Source: Nymphaea colorata | Taxonomy: Eukaryota; Streptophyta; Magnoliopsida; Nymphaeales; Nymphaeaceae | Reading direction: 5' to 3' | NCBI RefSeq assembly: GCF_008831285.2 | Contig: NC_045144.1 | Location: 16,603,858 to 16,667,857, forward strand | Length of the DNA stretch: 64,000 nucleotides | Shown: one piece after another, positions 1,438 to 39,163 of the stretch | Layout: the number at the start of each line of letters is the position of its first letter | Position numbering within the stretch: position 1 is the stretch's first letter | The notes under the pieces: generated by a model | Told to the model about the DNA's origin: nothing | Database searches by the model: none | The model's input: the letters and a program-made list of their open reading frames with translations, nothing else | Program-made: the position numbers and the translations under genes

Positions 1438-1443
1438 TATAAA
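1438..1443 (+). promoter_or_regulatory. Putative TATA box of GGP
   Basis: TATAAA in the context TTTCTATAAAGTC. Transcription would start near 1468-1475, giving a leader of roughly 550 nt, which fits the unusually long leaders of this gene family and places the conserved uORF wholly inside the mRNA. The start site is inferred, not seen. Confidence 0.5.
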
Positions 1444-1570: not shown

Positions 1571-1690
1571 ATGGTAGCCTTCCTCTTCCCGTGGATTTGG
1601 GATACGAGACGGCGGTCGAATAGTTTTCCGGCGTACGACAAGTTGAGGCAACACGGCTATACTCAAGTCCGTCCGGCAGCATCTCCATGA
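1571..1690 (+). other. Short AUG uORF in the GGP leader
   Basis: ATG at 1571 opens a 39-codon frame ending with TGA at 1688-1690, overlapping the first 38 nt of the ACG uORF in another frame. Its context is weak at -3 (T). A second small AUG uORF (1687-1719, 10 codons) overlaps its stop codon as ATGA. Neither peptide looks conserved. With weak contexts, most scanning ribosomes would be expected to pass both. They matter because they lie where ribosomes must reach the ACG start. Confidence 0.4.
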
Positions 1691-1880
1691 TGGTTGTTGG
1701 CAACCGGAGAGTTGCTTAACGTCGAAGTGTACGCGGTTGCCGCACGGTGGTAGGGGTGCTTTGCCCTCCGAAGGCGGAAGCCCCTCCGACCTCCTGTTCC
1801 TCGCTGGTGGTGGTTGCGTTTTTTCTGTTTCTCTTTCTCTTTTTCGCGTTCGTCGTGTTGGAGGACGCGAGATTGAGTAA
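1653..1880 (+). CDS. Conserved non-AUG (ACG) upstream ORF of GGP
   Basis: A 75-codon frame runs from an ACG at 1653 to TAA at 1878-1880, 145 nt before the main ATG. The ACG has an excellent context, with A at -3 and G at +4. The frame has no ATG. Residues 37-54 read LPSEGGSPSDLLFLAGGG, which I recognise as the core of the peptide uORF conserved in GGP/VTC2 leaders of land plants. In that family the uORF starts at a non-canonical codon, and at high ascorbate its translation lowers GGP synthesis. Other in-frame ACG codons at 1719 and 1731 have poor context (T at -3). Codons from 1818 on are T-rich and read hydrophobic. The identification rests on recall of the family peptide; the exact start codon is inference. 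Confidence 0.72.
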   Translation, partial: TAILKSVRQHLHDGCWQPESCLTSKCTRLPHGGRGALPSEGGSPSDLLFLAGGGCVFSVSLSLFRVRRVGGREIE

Positions 1881-2025: not shown

Positions 2026-4231
2026 ATGCTGACCATTAAGAGGGTCCCGACCGTTGTTTCCAATTACCAGGAAGATTCCCAGGATGTCGCCGGATGCGGC
2101 CGGAAGTGCCTGGGGAAGTGCTGCCTGCCTGGTATGCCTTTTTTTTTTTAGTTCTTTTTCCTCCAAGATTCTTGCAACTGTTTACTGTGCCCGGGAACCT
2201 GATTTTAGCGTCAAAACAGCTCTCCTGAAACTGGTTTCGACTCTAAAGCAGGGCTTCTTGCATGATTAGGGCTTCTAGCATGATTTTAGCAGGAACCAAG
2301 CGGGCCTGATTGGCTTTCTGATTTGAAATCCTGTTTTCAAGTAAAACATTGATGATGGTGTTGCAACGAGGAGCACCGTTCATGAGGGAACATGGTGATG
2401 CAAGAGGATTGGGGCTTCTTTTGTTCGTCCTCTAAAAAGCTGTAGAAAGCGAATTATGTTGTCACTGCTTTGGCACCCACTTTTTATGTTTTGTTTCACT
2501 TCAATTGATGCTAAGCATTTTTAGGAAAGCATGATTGACAGAGCCTGTGTTTGATACTGTTTGCAACTTTCCTGGAAAAAACATCAAATTTTTGGAGTTC
2601 ATTAATTTTTCACTGCGTACTTGTTGTATATGAATTTCTTATTTGTTTTCCATCGTGTTAACAGTGTCAAAGCTTCCTTTATATGCTTTCAAACCAAGGG
2701 AGGACAACACAGCAGGAAACAAGAACGAAAGGACCATATCTGACCCTGAATTCTCATTCAACCCCTTGCTTCTGGGACAGGTGAGATACGGTCACTCTTA
2801 TTCCTTATTTTTTTATTTGTTTATGTTTTTGCAATTTTTAATTTATTACTTTTTTCCCCCTCCTTTTAGTCTTATTACTCTGGTTCTTGACACAGTGGGA
2901 GGACAGGATGAATCGTGGTCTTTTCCGGTATGATGTTACCGCATGTGAAACAAAGGTAAGGTTGACGTTCATGAAGACTAAGCATGACCTGCAACTGCTT
3001 GCAGTTTTCATGTATTTGTTTCTTCAATGACAGGTCATTCCTGGGCAGCATGGTTTCATAGCTCAATTGAATGAAGGCCGTCACCTTAAGAAGCGCCCAA
3101 CTGAGTTCCGAGTTGATAAGGTCCTGCAGCCCTTTGACGGGAACAAGTTCAATTTTACAAAAGTAGGACAAGAAGAGGTACTGTTTCGATTCGAAGAGAA
3201 CTGCGATGAGGACGAAGATGAGGGCAATGATAGCAGAACACGTTTCTTCCCCAAATCCAGTGTCCTACCTTCCGCTAAGCCCAGCGTTGTAGCAATCAAT
3301 GTAAGAAACTGCACGCAATAGCTTTTTTTCTTATTTCACTGCATCTGAACTTCTATTTGAACTATATAATGCACAATTAGTAGTGTTCGTATTGACATGC
3401 TCATGAGCGATGACTACCAGATTCAAGATGATCAGTCTGTCTGGCAATGAAATGTGAGGAAACAACCAACCCTTTGAATTCAATGGTGCGTCTAGTCATA
3501 GTTTATAGCCTGATCAAGTCAAACTAGAGCTTAGAAATATACATCGGACTGATTGGTTCTGAACATACTCCTGTTAAAAGTTATAACATTTGAAATTCAT
3601 CCTCAGCTAGAAGTTCTGATGATATTGATTCTGAACTGCTGTATGTATGCCTCAAAACTGTGTTCACTATGCACCTTCTTGTTTATTTGTTGTGTCGTCA
3701 TTGATGAAACCTGGCCTGTAGTATATAGCTCCTTATTTAACTAGCACTGATCGGGATGCTATATCCATTTCAATGTCTTGGCACCGAACATCTTGAGTTT
3801 CTACGGCAATGTACATACCATATTTGACATACTGTAACTACCAATGAAGATGCCAGTATTCACTGTTACTAATAAATCAACTGTTTTGACGCGTGTAAAT
3901 GAACTGAATAAGGCTTACTGATCGCTTGTAATGCAGTTGTTATTGCATCTAAGGTTTTTTGTTTTGCATTATTAGGTACAAGCAGAATTTATGTATCGAT
4001 TTGCTTTGCAATCTAATAACTGCATGATCTTCCCTTTTATGACAGGTAAGCCCTATAGAATACGGCCATGTTCTGCTGATCCCCCGTGTCCTTGATTGCC
4101 TCCCTCAAAGGATGGATGGTGAAAGCCTCTTGCTTGCACTTCATATGGCTGCAGAGGCAGCGAATCCCTTCTTCAGGGTTGGTTACAATAGCTTGGGTGC
4201 CTTTGCTACCATTAATCATCTTCACTTCCAG

Positions 4232-4281
<50 letters not shown>

Positions 4282-5420
4282 GCACATCAGTCTAGTGCAT
4301 AGTCATATATACATGATATGACACGTTGTCAGTGGAAAAGCCTGCTATATGCAGAAACTGAACAACTGGTGCAAAGACTGAACTTTCTACCGTCTCTGAA
4401 GTACAGTTACAGGGCAGAATCATTCCTGTTGCACACATTAATGTTTTTCCGATTCAGCTGCATCTGAATCTTAACCCTTTCTTTCTTAAGTTGAAATCGT
4501 ATGTGAAGCCCATATAAAATATAGGTGTGCAGAGCCTACGTTAAACATATGTGTACGTACAGCAGGCTGACGTACTTAGGAATTTACCACGAACCTGTCT
4601 CCAAATTCAAAACCATAGGTGATGCCTGTGTGAAATATATGTGCTTGTAATATAGGCATAGAAACTTGAACTATTCTTGAAGCCAATGGTAAACATATAT
4701 GCATGTGTCTGCAGGCTTATTATCTGAATGTTCCCTTCCCTGTGGAGAAAGCACCTGCTAGATTGGTTGCTGAAAAAATCAAAAATGGGGTGAAGATCTA
4801 TGAACTTTGTGACTATCCAGTGAGGGGTCTTGTTTTTGAAGGTGGAAAGAACCTTTCCGATCTTTCGGATGAGGTCTCCACTTGTTGCATATGGCTGCAA
4901 AACAACAACATACCTTACAATCTCCTCATCTCAGACTCTGGCAAGCGCATCTTCCTCTTTCCGCAGGTAAGAAAAGTGAAACAGCAAATATTTAGTACCT
5001 GCATGTCTCAGTGATAGTTTGCTAATGTTACACATGCATTTGGCACAGTGCTATGCAGAGAAACAAGCACTAGGAGAGGTGAGCCAGGAATTGCTAGACA
5101 CCCAAGTGAATCCAGCTGTCTGGGAGATTAGCGGTCACATGGTGCTCAAAAGGAAGAAAGACTATGAGGATGCATCTGAGGATTATGCGTGGAAATTGCT
5201 CGCTGTGGTCTCTCTGTCAGAAGAGAGATTTGAAGAGGTGAAGGCCTATCTGTTGGAGGCAGTAGATGGATTTATACTTGCACAGGAGCCAAAGAAGGGA
5301 CACACAGCCGAAAATCTTGATGATGTGATTGCGACTGCAACTCCTGCTGAGAAAGAAGACCTATTTCAAGTGCATGGAACACACGCACATGTTCATGAAG
5401 GGTGTCTTGTGTTGCAGTGA
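2026..5420 (+). CDS. GGP: GDP-L-galactose phosphorylase (VTC2/GGP)
   Basis: Catalyses GDP-L-galactose + phosphate to L-galactose-1-phosphate + GDP, the first committed and rate-controlling step of the Smirnoff-Wheeler ascorbate pathway. Coding exons: 2026-2131, 2665-2780, 2896-2955, 3034-3300, 4046-4231, 4715-4966 and 5049-5420, all GT-AG and phase-consistent, giving 452 aa, about the family length. The start MLTIKRVPTVVSNYQ matches the family N-terminus, followed by the Cys-rich GCGRKCLGKCC. The HIT-superfamily active-site variant HLHFQ (H241, H243, Q245) ends exon 5; H243 should be the nucleophile. GRHLKKRPTEFRVDKVLQPF and NPAVWEISGHMVLKRK are also diagnostic. An acidic insert (about residues 150-170) and a longer C-terminal tail after the usual end are the variable parts. 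Introns are short to moderate; intron 5 starts with a (CT)n array. Regulation is probably translational through the leader uORF. Confidence 0.96.
4234..4279 (+). repeat. (CT)n microsatellite
   Basis: About 23 CT units beginning two bases after the donor of GGP intron 5. It sits directly against the 5' splice site, so length changes could affect U1 recognition. Confidence 0.9.
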
Positions 5421-7115
5421 CTTAAATTTGTAAACGATTTAGTTCAGAGGCGTGAAGTCTTCTAGACTACCGAATAGACGGTTTAAAAGCATTAATCTGT
5501 TAGTGTTAGTAGTACTAGAGAAATGCCATAATCTATTACTATCATTCATCTGCCATGTATGAAGTAGTAGGTTAGATGGTATTCTAAGACTGCTTGTTGT
5601 CTAAGGATCTCTTTATGGTTTAATGAAATATCTATTTAGAATGTCTTCAGTTTGGATGTGCATTGGGACCCTATGAGTACCAAACTTTTAATCTGCACTG
5701 AAACTTTTCTTGTGTACAATCTTTCAAGAGAACGTACCCTAAAAAAACTGTTCAAGAAAACGTTCTAGAGTCTCTTAAAGCACAAAAGCTGTTCAAGAAA
5801 ACGTTCTAGAGTCTCTTAAAGCACAAAAGCTTCAGTAATAATCAAAATTTTATGGTTCTTTGTTCATTGACAGTTCCTTGGTTTTTACTCTGCCCTTGGC
5901 GTTCAAAAAGGATCTGTGTAGGAAAACGGGCAAAGCTGGTTCACCTACTAAATGTTGTTCCCGCCATATACTTGGTGCCTGCAGACTCATCTTACGAGAA
6001 ACCGTTGCTTGCCACTGCCTTCTTTTTCATCCGTTCTTTTTAGTTCGCAGGATGGGTTTAGGCCTTAGGCTTGTAAGAAAAAGCTTATTTCACCTTGCTC
6101 TGTTTCAAATCTTGTATGAATTAAAAAGACAAGCAATAATTCCTTGTCCCATTTCCTATGGTTTTCTTTTCTGTAAGCGAATGATGTGATATTCATAGGA
6201 GACCCATCTTTCTGTGCCGTTTCTCAGGTGAAAATAGGTAAATTCTCAATTCATAATGGTCTCCGTTTAATGCCCGGCGCACAAACTAGATATGTATTTT
6301 CCACGTTAACATCCAAATTCATAACATAAACTGCTTGTGATGGTTTCTCTTAAAATCATCCCATTCGAGGAAAAACAGAACTGCAATGTGTCATACATTT
6401 AAATGCAGGAAAATGTCTCGTCCATTTAAAAAACAACAGATGTAGACTAACCAAGGTTGTATCATTGTTCGATCTAAACAGTTTGTCATTCAACTGACTC
6501 AATAAGCCTTGGATTTTGGCTATCCGTCAAATTCCGGGGTTACAGAGTTACATTCAAAGCCGGTCCAAACAGTCAATACCACCAGTCTCATAAGCCGTTT
6601 GAGATTTTGGTTCTGTCTGCGTGCGTCGTCATATTCCGGGTTACACGGGGATCTTTTGCAATACCCAATGATACCATGTTTTCGTTCAGGACGAAAAAAA
6701 GGTCTTTTGTACCAATTAATGTAAAGGCTTTCAGTTACACATTCAATTGATTCTGCCTGTTGTTCGATTCGCAAGTGATCATTATATTCAAATTCAACCG
6801 TCATGGAAACAAAACATAGAAGGGTAGGAAAGAATGTTGATTGGGATCGCCTCATGCTTCTGGTGCATCTATGACACCAACTTGCAACCATACCTCAAGG
6901 CAAATGAACATATTCAAGAATTTAAACAGAGACTAATAACCAATTAATGTCACGATTCTCTGGACCGAAATTTCAAAAAGAAAAGGCAAAAAAATAGACA
7001 AAAATGTTGAAGCTAGTTCATCAGCCTCAACGGTAAAAGTCAAAAACATTGCATGTTCTCTAACCATTCCAAGGACAAGAATCATGATCTTAAGTACTTA
7101 TCAATACTATTTTAG
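5421..7115. other. Convergent spacer between GGP and RACK1
   Basis: Both flanking genes end here, so the region holds the GGP 3' UTR and the RACK1 3' UTR. The only structure I see is the 41 bp tandem duplication at 5748-5829. Short open frames at 5852-6189 and 6509-6891 show no protein similarity. Confidence 0.6.
5748..5829 (+). repeat. 41 bp perfect tandem duplication
   Basis: Two identical adjacent 41 bp units (5748-5788 and 5789-5829) beginning CTGTTCAAGAAAACG. They lie in or just beyond the GGP 3' UTR. No mismatch is visible, so the event is recent. Confidence 0.92.
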
Positions 7116-10100
7116 CTAATAACGGCCTACTCCCCAAACTCTAATTGCACCATCAGTGTATCCAGTGAACAGAGTGCTTCCATCCGAACTCCAGCTCAAA
7201 CTGGTGCAGTATAGCATCTGAAAGGCAACACAGATAATTTAGAACTGAACGCAGATGCATAGTATAAAGAAAATCAAACATCAGAAAACGAGAAGTGCAC
7301 ATTTTAATACCACGTCACATTAGATTTTCTCTAATGTTAGTATCTTAGTTCATCTCTACACAACACCGTGATCCCTCCTTCTAGATCTACCAAACAGGAG
7401 GTTATAAACCATTACATGCAAGGGCGTGCATGTACTACACATATTACAACCTTCAAGGCTCCCAAAGAAAGAGAAATGGGAAGTGTTTCTAACATCTCAT
7501 TCATATTAAATATAAAAGCCCAATCTAGGCAGCTGAGCTGGCCCACAAGAAAGGAACTACACAAACCGGAATACAAACAGGATATCTGAGGAAAACTACA
7601 GACTCAATTAATAGATTATATGCCCCTTTTCACGGCAGGTCTTCCATACTAATACTGATCGCCACAATGGCTTGAAACACTAAGGGTTATGAAACAAAAA
7701 AAGAAACTATCATTCAACTTCATAAAATATGTACCCAAATAATGTTGAAATATTGATGAGTACATGCTTCCAGTTGTATCTACTTCCAAGTGGTTGTACA
7801 AGCAAAACCCATTAACCAAAAGAAATAATCAGCAAGTTCTTCACACTATTATTTACCATGACATAAATCCCATAATTTATTTGAGTGACGCAAGAAAAAA
7901 AGATGACCACACGTATAACGAAGCACAGAAAAACATGCCATTTTTTTTTCATTGCCCGGATAAAAGATCATATAGATTGCTCTTCACAAGTAAAAATCAA
8001 GATAGACCTCAGAGATCTTGGTGGATAGTATTCATCAACTGGTGCTTCCCATCAAGAGTAGCAAATACTATAATCACATCATGGGTCCAAATAGAAAACG
8101 ACCGTGGAAATCAAAATCATAAATACAGTAATAAACAACATGAGCAAACTGGATGTTAGTGTACAATGCCAACAAACCTTCAGGTACGGAATTATTCAAT
8201 TAGCTGCAACTCATCAATATACAATAATCAGTAGAATATGATGTCAACTTTTTAATTAAAAATACAGATAGGCCTCAGAGATCTTGGTGGATGATGTTCA
8301 TCACTTGCATTAGCCTTCAAGAGTAGCAAATATATTGTCACATCATTGGCCCAAAATAGACAAGCTTTCCATTGCCCGGATAAAAGATTCATATAGATTG
8401 CTCTTCAACAGTAAAAATCAAGATAGACCTCAGAGATCTTGGTGGACAGTATTCATCAATTGGTGCTTCCCATCAAGAGTAGCAAATACTATAATCACAT
8501 CATGAGTCCAAGTAGAAAACGGCCGTGAAAATCAAAATCATAAACACAGTAATATACAACATGAGCAAACCGGATGTTAGTGTACAATGCCAACAAACCT
8601 TCAGGTACGGAATTATTCAATTAGCTGCAAATCATCAATATACAATAATCAGTAGAATATGATATCAACTTTTAAATTAAAAATGCAGATAGGCCTCAGA
8701 GATCTTGGTGGATGATGTTCATCACTTGGATTAGCCTTCAAGAGTAGCAAATATATTGTCACATCATTGGCCCAAAATATACAAAAGACTCATAAGGTTT
8801 AGCAAAAATTTTCATATGAGACGACAGGCATAAAAGTAGCAATTAAATACATACTAATTACATATAATATATATCAGAGTCAAATACACAACTAACTAAT
8901 TACAAATTGAAGAAATTAAACAATTAAATAGTATAAAATCAACTTAAGGGTAAAACCTTTATCCACGAACCCCAATTTTGCAATTAGTCCTCATCTTTCT
9001 GTAATTAGTGCATTGCAAAATGCAAACGTTCTTACATATTAACCTTCTATTTTTCTAGCTAGAAAAAAAAAACGAATTAGCTCTTAAATTTTTCTTTTAT
9101 TTTCTTTTTCAAGATTGACTTGCATAAATGATATTGATCATAGATGCCATTTAGGAGGAAATAAGACAGCAACCGAAGGGCACAAGTAGTATTTACAAAA
9201 ATACCAAATTGAAAGACATGGAGATGTAACCAAACAATCCAGTTGGCTCCAAAGTCAAGCTTAAATAGTATAAGCATGCCGAATAGGGAATGGCAGCATG
9301 ACATGAAGCCTCCACGACAAAACACGTTCATCAGGCTGGAGGAGATACCAAGCACTAGAGTATCCTAACCAAGTCTAATTTGACAAAAATCTTTATCTTC
9401 TAATTTGGAATAGTCAACATCAACAAGTTCACGAAACAATGGTAGTTGTATAATAACTGGAACAGCAGAATATCAATCCCAATCAGAGTTGGAGACAAGA
9501 AAACGTAACAGAACAGGAATCTAAAAAGATGAAACAACAGCAAAAGCACCACAATCAATCATAAGCATAGGCACCCCAAAGTAACAATTTTTTCGTCTTA
9601 AAAACGATCTGAGAACAACATATGAAATGAACGAAAATAAAATAGAAGAAAATAGCAAGGTAAACTCTATGGAGAGAATTTGTTTGACCTTGTTCTTTCC
9701 AGCAGTGATGTCAGGCTTGAGCTCCTGAACAATGCTCTTGCTCTCCAGGTCCCAGATCTTCACACTGTCCTCGGTGGCTGCGCAGAGCCAGTACCTGTTG
9801 GGGCTGAAGCAAAGGGCATGGATGATACCGCCCGCATCGAGGGAGTAAAGCCTCTTCCCCTCGGCAAGGTCCCAAAGTAGGGTGACGCCGTCTTTGCCGC
9901 CGCTGGCGCAGAGCGAACCGTCCGGGGAGACTGCAACGGTGTTGACATACCCGGTGTGGCCAGCGAGAGTGCACTTGAGCTTGCAGTTAGTGAGGTTCCA
10001 GACCTTCACGGTCTTGTCCCACGAACCGGAGACAATGGTGGGGGAATAGGTATTGGGCGAGAATCTCACGCAGCTTACCCAGTTGGTATGGCTATCGGCG

Positions 10101-10534
10101 TCCTGGATCGTGTACTTGCACTCTCCGAGCGTGTTCCAGAGCTTGATGGAACGGTCCCGGGAGGCGGACACGATCTGGCGGTTGTCGACGGAGAAAGCGA
10201 CTGATAGCACGTCCTTGGTGTGCCCGACAAAGCGCCGGGTCGTGAGACCGGTGTTGAGGTCCCAGAGTCGGAGCTCAGAGTCCCAAGATCCGGAGAGCGC
10301 GAACTGTCCATCAGAGGATAGAACGACGTCCTGAACGAAATGGGAGTGACCGGTGAGGCGGCGGCGGGGAACGCCGTAGTCGGGGCCCTCCTCCTTGGTG
10401 AGGTTCCATAAAAGGACGGACTTATCGCGGGAGGAGGAGACTATCACGTCGGAGTTGTCGATCGGGGTGGCAATTGCCGTGACCACGTCCGAGTGACCCT
10501 TGATCGTCCCTCTCAGAACCAACGAATCGGCCAT
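7116..10534 (-). CDS. RACK1: RACK1, WD40 receptor for activated C kinase / small-subunit scaffold
   Basis: Seven-bladed WD40 protein that sits on the 40S ribosomal subunit near the mRNA exit and scaffolds signalling proteins. Coding exons on the minus strand: 10534-9689 (start [16 protein letters not shown]) and 7217-7116, giving 315 aa. WD repeats are clear, with GH-WD pairs such as [46 protein letters not shown] and [12 protein letters not shown]. The last blade, [17 protein letters not shown] followed by a C-terminal GRY, is on exon 2. The donor used is AAG/GTCAAA, a weak site chosen because it joins KNK to MLYCTSLSW in frame exactly as in the family; reading on past it gives a hydrophobic non-family tail. 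A single late intron matches the Arabidopsis gene structure. The intron is 2.47 kb and contains a 420 bp tandem duplication. Confidence 0.95.
7951..8782 (+). repeat. 420 bp tandem duplication in the RACK1 intron
   Basis: Copy 1 is 7951-8370 and copy 2 is 8371 to about 8782, both beginning ATTGCCCGGATAAAAGAT. A few substitutions and single-base indels separate them. Inside each copy is an older internal duplication of about 95 bp: the segment starting CTCAGAGATCTTGGTGGA occurs twice per copy (near 8010 and 8275, then near 8430 and 8696). This is therefore a duplication of an earlier duplication. Confidence 0.92.
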
Positions 10535-12557: not shown

Positions 12558-31000
<18,443 letters not shown>

Positions 31001-36369: not shown

Positions 36370-36696
36370 TTAATGACTACATATCCAACAAAGAAAACAT
36401 GTAATCACAAAACAAGTAATCCAACATTTGTGGCTGCATTTTCGTTCTTCTAACTTCGTGTCTTCTATATCTTCCTTTGCAATGACATCTTCAATGAGTG
36501 GAGACCTACGAACTTGCACACCATACTTGTTTTGGAGATACTCAAGCATGTGATTTTCTGCTACTTCTAAAGAATCAAACGATCTGAAGATGGCACCCTT
36601 GTACCGATAGACTAATGGTTGGCACCGCTCCCAGCTGTCATATATGTCTCGCTCACGCCCTTCGAAAACCACATAGTACTTTCGGCGAGGCATCAT
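36370..36696 (-). CDS. ORF with RNase H1 N-terminal / viroplasmin-type hybrid-binding domain
   Basis: From ATG at 36694-36696 to TAA at 36370-36372, about 108 aa. Residues 4-50 (RRKYYVVFEGRERDIYDSW, then YKGAIFRSFDSLEVAE) match the small fold found at the N-terminus of eukaryotic RNase H1, which grips RNA/DNA hybrids and is also known from caulimovirus inclusion proteins. The second half carries acidic residues and a Cys-rich tail. It lies 57 bp downstream of the transposase stop, on the same strand and inside the Harbinger element. Whether it is a separate gene or a spliced C-terminal module of the transposon transcript cannot be settled from sequence. No catalytic RNase H domain follows. 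Confidence 0.6.
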   Translation of the reverse strand: MMPRRKYYVVFEGRERDIYDSWERCQPLVYRYKGAIFRSFDSLEVAENHMLEYLQNKYGVQVRRSPLIEDVIAKEDIEDTKLEERKCSHKCWITCFVITCFLCWICSH

Positions 36697-36752
36697 CTTC
36701 GTTGTCCTGTTGAAAAGAAAACAAATGTCAGACAATCAAACTGAAGAAGTTG

Positions 36753-38113
36753 TCAACATTTATAAACAAACTTACTATTTAATTGATAATCTGTAAACAT
36801 TTGAGATGATATAGCTGCTCTCAAAGCATTGTTGCTTCCTCGTTGATGTGTTTGGCTTGCAATTTCAGGTTCGCTTAAGACAAAGTTATCAGTCGAAGGT
36901 GCATCTTCATCATCAAATTGCTCGGCATTTGGATTGTGTTCAATTATGAAGTTGTGCAATACACATGTAGCAAGAACGATTTGAGCTTGTTTTTGGAATG
37001 GATACTGAACTTGCATTTTCAATATTGGAAAACGACCTTTCAACATGCCAAAAGTTCTTTCTACTATATTTCGGAGTGATGAATGCCTATGGTTGAATAA
37101 TTCTTCTTCTGTTCTAGGTGAGCGTGCTCCCCGAGTGTTAAACTCAGACAAATGATAACGATGTCCTCGATAAGGTGTAAGCAAGCCGACAATGTTTGGA
37201 TACCCCCCATCAGCCAGATAAAATTTCCCTACAATTGAACAAAATTTAATTCTACATTGATACATGCTTCTTAAAAGAGTGAATTGGTTGGTGGAACTAC
37301 GTACCTTCTGGGACAACAAATGGGTCTGTTTCATGATCTAGTGCATTGTACAATACTCTTGAGTCTGTTGCACTTCCTTCCCATCCAGCCAAAACGTAGT
37401 GGAATCTAGTATCTAATCCGACTACAGCCATGACGTTTTGAGAAACGAAACCTTTTCTATTGCGAAACCTTGCTTGATCTGAAGCTGGGACCCATGCAGG
37501 TATATGTGTGCCATCGATTGCTCCTAAACAATTCTATATGACAAGGCAACTAGTTAGTCATGTTGTAGTTTGTCTTGTTGTATGTGTCATGTTGAGTTCA
37601 AGATGATGAAATTACCTCAAAATATGAAAAGAATCGTTTAGAATGTCGAATATGTGCTGGCATCATCTCATCATTGGGCCGCCGAACGTAATCCTTACCC
37701 AGTATACATATCGCTCGTAGCACTAGGCTGACATATTTACTTATTGTTTGTCCGGAATATTGAAACGTATTTTGAACAGCACGATTCCGTTCATTATGTC
37801 CAATTGTCAAAAGCAATATAGCTACTGGTTCTTCTACGGTAATGTCACGAGCATCCTCCAACAAATTTCTATCCCTTAGAATGTTACACAGTCTCATATA
37901 TGTATGCCCTTCCATACGGAGTAAGTCCAAACAATTTCTAGGATGACCGTGAAGCATAAGTTGGACAAAAGATGTACCAGCATCTCGAAATGGATGAACA
38001 ATCCTCCTAGATGATGGTTGGTCTTTTAACCAAAAGAAGACAAACACAAAAACCATTCGAATGATGAAAAGCACTCGTTCATCGTCATCTTCGAACATGT
38101 CAACATCAATCAT
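36753..38113 (-). CDS. PIF/Harbinger transposase (DDE_Tnp_4)
   Basis: Three coding exons on the minus strand: 38113-37616, 37533-37305 and 37228-36753, joined by introns of 82 and 76 bp with GT-AG ends and correct phase; 400 aa, normal for the family. Exon 1 holds the N-terminal helix-turn-helix-like region. The nuclease core has all three acidic residues: D173 in GAIDGTHI, D223 in [11 protein letters not shown] and E299 in [25 protein letters not shown] and TPYRG are also characteristic. No internal stop is seen, so the gene is young or kept by selection; it could also be a domesticated HARBI1/ALP1-like gene, but the linked Myb-like ORF and terminal repeats favour a transposon. A strong GTAAGT donor lies close to the stop, so the 3' end may be spliced. 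Confidence 0.88.
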
Positions 38114-38359: not shown

Positions 38360-39163
38360 CTATAAAGTACCAAGTCTACGCGACAACCATGTTAGCCGGT
38401 CTTCAGGTGGAACGTTGAGAAAGATCATGGAATTCGTTCCCTCTCCTAACAGGTCCAGACTCAGCAGTCTTGTATGACTATCTAGTAGCCCTGTGTCCAC
38501 CATCTCTTGTAAAATTTCACAACATTTGGCATATTGAAACCCTCTAGAAGTATGTGTTAGGGCGTCCACATTTTTAACTATACCGTTCAACAAATTGTAA
38601 TACGTGTCATCATTGGTTGACCTGTTCCGTTTTGACCTATGTGAACTTGTATTGGTTGTCGGATTCTCAGTTGTAGGAGTTGTAGGTAGTGGCGATTGTA
38701 GGGGTGTACCATCATTTGGCGTCTGTGTAAATGACTGTTCACTGTCAAACTGCATGTAAGAAGGTGAATTCTGGAAAGCAGGTGTAGATGGGAGTGATTC
38801 AGTCTCAGCTTGTAGCACGTTGTTTAATGTTACTGCATTTTGCCCAGTTGCATGAGATTCGCCATATACCTCGGCGAACTCATCATAGTATCTCCATACT
38901 TTTGGCCCTCTGTACTTTTTTCTATTTGGATATTTCTGAAAAAATTCATGTGTTCAAATATTGCACAAGCAAATACATGTGAGACAAAACCTAACAGAAT
39001 TAATTTTATAATTTACCTGAACATAGTCGTTCCATACTTGGGGGTCGACCTCAATGCATTTGTTAATTGGGTCGTAGCCAAACCCACTTGTGTTCAACAA
39101 TGCATTTGAAAAGCTATCCTCTTTCAAATGAACATGTTTCCAATATACTTGCTTATTGCTCAT
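38360..39163 (-). CDS. Myb/SANT-like DNA-binding protein of the Harbinger element (5' partial)
   Basis: Second gene typical of PIF/Harbinger elements, whose product binds the element ends and brings in the transposase. Two exons on the minus strand: 39163-39017 and 38935-38360 (TAG at 38360-38362), 240 aa as seen. The Myb_DNA-bind_3-type region covers residues 1 to about 80, with TSGFGYDP, VDPQVWNDYVQKYPNRKKYRG and YYDEFAEVYG. It is followed by a Ser/Thr/Pro-rich linker and a C-terminal helical segment ending LTWLSRRLGTL. The usual first ~60 residues of this domain, up to the aromatic-rich first helices, are missing upstream of 39163, so either an exon is lost or the element is truncated there. 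Confidence 0.8.

Follow-up and report, generated by a model that had tools for sequence, protein, structure and literature searches.

An ACG-started upstream open reading frame in the leader of a GGP-like gene of Nymphaea colorata, very probably the conserved-peptide uORF of the GGP (VTC2) family

The 64-kb stretch of Nymphaea colorata DNA analyzed here (the window) carries on its forward strand a GGP-like gene (2026..5420), preceded in its leader by an ACG-started upstream open reading frame (uORF; 1653..1880). The main ORF of the gene is complete and encodes 452 amino acids in seven exons (2026-2131, 2665-2780, 2896-2955, 3034-3300, 4046-4231, 4715-4966 and 5049-5420), all six introns have GT-AG borders, and the product, which by its sequence we take to be GGP, carries the motifs HLHFQ and KKRP. 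Both motifs fit the hallmarks of GGP given in a wheat study, an H-phi-H-phi-Q motif and a KKRP signal (PMC6878703), which makes the downstream gene GGP-like; seven exons are stated for 73.6% of the GGP genes of one dicot group (PMC7640755). Although GGP is a well studied plant enzyme, the 452-aa product found no match among Pfam, NCBIfam and PDB sequences at E up to 10, while three of six other frames of the same window matched Pfam in a control search. The assignment to GGP is accordingly based on both motifs, on the structure of the gene and on the recognizable sequence of the product. A second GGP copy was sought within the 64-kb window and no match was found outside the locus, nor were there any GGP relatives among six stretches from viral contigs. 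One of 71 genome-contig stretches, from a prokaryote, gave a 32% match over query residues 150-252; a tblastn search at E 0.01 failed to recover this match, and it was set aside.

The frame at 1653..1880 consists of 75 sense codons followed by the stop codon TAA (1878-1880), and it contains no in-frame ATG. Its ACG at 1653 lies in the context GCAAC[ACG]G, which puts an A at position -3 and a G at +4. The full peptide read from this ACG is TAILKSVRQHLHDGCWQPESCLTSKCTRLPHGGRGALPSEGGSPSDLLFLAGGGCVFSVSLSLFRVRRVGGREIE, and its core, residues 37-54 of the translated frame (1761..1814), is LPSEGGSPSDLLFLAGGG. The original prediction had described an ATG-free ACG frame of 75 codons in the leader of GGP, and it agrees with our results in the coordinates, the start context and residues 37-54, as well as in the place of the frame before a GGP-like gene. 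What the DNA itself shows is the downstream gene, the open frame with its spacing and its ACG context, and the lack of any ATG or ATC in frame. The nearest in-frame stop 5' of the ACG is TGA 1644, with GGC and AAC between them; since the frame opens just two codons 5' of the ACG, no farther in-frame start exists upstream within the unspliced sequence. In-frame near-cognate codons 3' of ACG 1653 are ATA 1659 and AAG 1665, with a next ACG at 1719. A search for an in-frame ATC in 1653-1880 found none. Ten ACG codons are present in 1468-2025, two of which combine a purine at -3 with G at +4, and the second of these (1609) opens just four codons. The same context is found at 12 of the 85 near-cognate codons of that interval, and the longest frame among the 12 is that of ACG 1653 (75 codons; the runner-up has 46). 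From the stop of the uORF there are 145 nt to the main AUG at 2026, so that the main ORF is not overlapped, and 251 nt to the first exon junction. The 21 codons of the tail past the core (1815..1877) have a GC3 of 0.24, compared with 0.61 in the first 54 codons. This tail resembles leader rather than kept coding sequence and is possibly not conserved. No second copy of the uORF was detected within the 64-kb window, where all matches beyond the locus had E values of 0.17 or weaker, and none of 29 viral-contig and 485 genome-contig stretches, collections without a plant GGP leader, held a confirmed relative of its peptide.

The only match to TATA[AT]A within 1101-2030 is a TATA-like box, TATAAA, at 1438..1443 on the forward strand. 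Judging from this box and the usual spacing rule, the transcript would start near 1465-1475, and the box thus suggests that an AUG at 1571 is transcribed. This AUG, with T at -3 and G at +4, opens a uORF of 39 codons (1571..1690) which would then be present in the mRNA and which overlaps the start of the ACG uORF by 38 nt, out of frame. A second AUG uORF of nine codons, nested in the ACG uORF in another frame (1690..1719), has A at -3 and G at +4, and directly 5' of its AUG lies the weak-context AUG 1687, in the same frame and likewise ending at 1719. AUGs 1687 and 1690 both arise from the codons CAT GAT GG (His-Asp-Gly) of the ACG uORF. All three AUGs (1571, 1687 and 1690) had been overlooked in the original prediction. 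There is no ATG in 1693-2025, before the main AUG, and 306 nt separate the stop of the nested frame at 1719 from AUG 2026.

As a chance control, 2000 dinucleotide-preserving shuffles of 1468-2025 were examined. Of the 2000 shuffles, 1145 contained 77 or more consecutive open codons (mean longest stretch 84), and 229 contained an ACG frame that ran for 75 or more codons to a stop. Because shuffled leaders often match it, the length of the open frame was dropped as coding evidence; taken alone it says nothing about coding. Across the first 54 codons of the uORF, GC content hardly differs between the three codon positions (0.61, 0.59 and 0.61), compared with 0.58, 0.36 and 0.49 in the GGP coding sequence. 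Composition is thus without a sign of coding, and this measure was abandoned as well, the uORF core having no codon-position pattern. Neither a depletion of ATG in the leader (three ATGs against a shuffle mean of 4.6; three or fewer in 568/2000) nor its ATG-free tail (matched in 243/2000) is significant. A hairpin predicted at 1675..1716, 22 nt after the ACG, is weakly supported: 1653-1740 folds somewhat better than shuffled sequence (z -1.99; 5 of 200 shuffles as good), and with flanking sequence, in 1600-1740, the score is z -0.81 (40 of 200 as good). With z 0.46 for 1740-1830 and -0.46 for 1880-2028, none of these last three intervals shows a gain in folding, and RNA structure was rejected as a candidate for the switch. 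An Rfam search gave four matches, every one under its gathering score. The case for a function of the frame rests on its place before GGP, on its start codon and on the published family, and not on statistics.

A conserved-peptide uORF of GGP/VTC2 was published by Laing et al. 2015 (Plant Cell 27:772), cited here through later papers that refer to it. Passages of seven papers describe between them a uORF of the GGP leader that is conserved, has a non-canonical ACG (or AUC) start and is repressive in reporters, and ribosome stalling at high ascorbate is proposed in the same set (PMC11066809, PMC6878703, PMC12559526, PMC11066804, PMC12371167, PMC7084844, PMC13084149). The interpretation of the original prediction is supported in part, these passages backing its claim that in the family this uORF lowers GGP translation. 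The range of the family is given, among papers on GGP leaders, as “from mosses to angiosperms”. In the lettuce GGP2 leader a change of ACG to AAA is stated to lift the reporter by more than 160% (PMC13084149), and in rice mutation of the uORF gave 1.48x and 1.83x reporter (PMC12559526) and a large ribosome peak is described on the uORF (PMC11440899). Reviews state for other plants that the feedback is lost when the amino acid sequence is altered (PMC11066804) and that raised ascorbate represses the leader reporter (PMC11066809). Within the synthesis of vitamin C in plants, the strongest point of control is stated to be GGP, and edits to the uORF are described as raising ascorbate in several plants (PMC11066809, PMC7084844). 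A term search of a uORF survey (PMC2527020) found nothing on GGP/VTC2 or non-AUG starts, and among the paper texts searched none joined VTC2, uORF and Ribo-seq. The peptide and DNA strings of the uORF had no match in these texts, where the alignments are figures.

The frame at 1653..1880 has in common with the published GGP/VTC2 uORF its place in the GGP leader, the lack of an in-frame AUG, an ACG in good context and a main ORF that is not overlapped. It differs in its 75 codons, compared with the 60-65 residues and AUC or ACG start given in a review (PMC7084844), in the lack of an in-frame AUC, and in the AUG uORF that overlaps its ACG start. The uORF of rice OsGGP shares with it the GGP leader and the ACG start and has 60 residues against 75 here (PMC12559526). 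Those of wheat TaGGP1 and TaGGP2, also in GGP leaders and with an AUC or ACG start, have 56 and 47 residues against the 75 here (PMC6878703), which indicates that peptide length is no strict criterion of the family. An AUC start, mentioned in published passages which do not give its position relative to the ACG (PMC6878703, PMC7084844), is unavailable here because there is no in-frame ATC, and ACG is thereby favored. At consensus position 45 grasses have A and the remaining plants E (PMC6878703); the core in Nymphaea colorata contains an E, which may or may not correspond to that position.

From these results we conclude that the frame 1653-1880 is very probably the GGP (VTC2) uORF of Nymphaea colorata, which according to the family model would keep GGP translation low. 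Very probably it would extend the known GGP uORF to a further plant, as a case ordinary in kind and with small anatomical differences. Its translation, its repressive effect, the response to ascorbate and the part of the peptide would follow those of the family. Scanning ribosomes would start partly at ACG 1653, with a product of at most 75 residues; those held on the nascent peptide, or leaving after the uORF, would miss AUG 2026, with low GGP translation as a consequence. In the published model repression is stronger at high ascorbate and low ascorbate favors passage, which would amount to end-product feedback. Nonsense-mediated decay is a possible added route, since the uORF stop lies 251 nt before the first exon junction. 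Against reading the frame as a GGP uORF are its chance-level length, the flat codon-position GC and a size of 75 codons that exceeds the published lengths. If AUG 1571 is part of the mRNA it would also carry some ribosomes past ACG 1653, which counts against the model in its simple form.

That last point leads to an explanation which would supplement the GGP uORF rather than exclude it, and which we hold to be unlikely: the AUG uORFs 1571-1690 and 1690-1719 would, together with the ACG uORF, form a gate that sets access to AUG 2026. Ribosomes using AUG 1571 would finish at 1690, past the ACG, and thus bypass the ACG uORF, a consequence of the overlap geometry that has its counterpart in the tiny uORF described for AdoMetDC (PMC7503886). 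Ribosomes leaking past the ACG would in turn hit the strong AUG 1690 and would need reinitiation across 306 nt in order to translate GGP. The arrangement fits this, with ACG 1653 inside the frame 1571-1690, A at -3 and G at +4 of AUG 1690, an ATG-free 1693-2025, and 306 nt from stop 1719 to the main AUG. It also has a precedent in the overlapping uORFs of AdoMetDC (PMC7503886, PMC12371167), likewise the leader of a metabolite-feedback enzyme in which an upstream AUG frame overlaps a second repressive uORF. The AdoMetDC tiny uORF has 12 bp and a 1-nt overlap (PMC7503886), compared with 39 codons and a 38-nt overlap here, and the likeness is one of working and not of membership. On the other side, the presence of AUG 1571 in the mRNA is judged from the TATA-like box only and this AUG has T at -3, the count of three leader ATGs (three or fewer in 568/2000) and the ATG-free tail (243/2000) are not unusual in shuffles, and AUGs 1687 and 1690 may be a by-product of the His-Asp-Gly codons CAT GAT GG. 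Thirty-nine codons is, moreover, long for efficient reinitiation. It looks quite unlikely that such a three-frame gate would go as far as GGP being made mostly by reinitiation, with the feedback set by the choice among three starts in the manner of AdoMetDC.

There is also a slim chance that the repression would be independent of the peptide, so that initiation at the ACG would just consume scanning ribosomes or trigger decay and neither the peptide nor ascorbate would have a role. The stop codon, 251 nt before the exon junction, is in a position able to trigger decay (PMC11066804), but the abolition of feedback by amino acid changes (PMC11066804) and the repression of the leader reporter by ascorbate (PMC11066809), both in other plants, argue against it. 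A chance open frame without function in Nymphaea colorata, in accordance with the frequency of such lengths in shuffles (1145/2000, and 229/2000 for ACG-started frames) and with the absence of a codon-position GC pattern, is extremely unlikely given its placement in a GGP leader with the published start codon of the family (PMC11066809, PMC6878703, PMC12559526, PMC7084844).

As a GGP uORF, the frame 1653-1880 adds little alone, being one more GGP leader. The lack of an in-frame AUC favors ACG among the two starts in print, and the longer tail and the extra AUGs show what the GGP uORF model may need to accommodate.

Several other features were observed in the window. A WD40-repeat frame (Pfam) on the minus strand at 9521-10534 is presumably a RACK1 gene. 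The frame at 30647-31000 on the same strand encodes 117 aa without a Pfam match, and we take its start to be reminiscent of a CCR4-NOT subunit. The minus-strand region 36370-37334 holds a piece of a DDE_Tnp_4 transposase (36753-37334) and a Cauli_VI (RNase H1 N-terminal) domain (36370-36696); the neighboring frames 37598-38113 and 38360-38755 had no match in Pfam. Repeats include two tandem copies of a 421-bp unit at 7946-8784 (95% match) and 2.2 copies of a 41-bp unit at 5743-5831 (97% match), the latter downstream of the GGP coding region. Finally, a (CT)22.5 microsatellite at 4235-4279, just 3' of the donor of GGP exon 5, is likely to be polymorphic in length.
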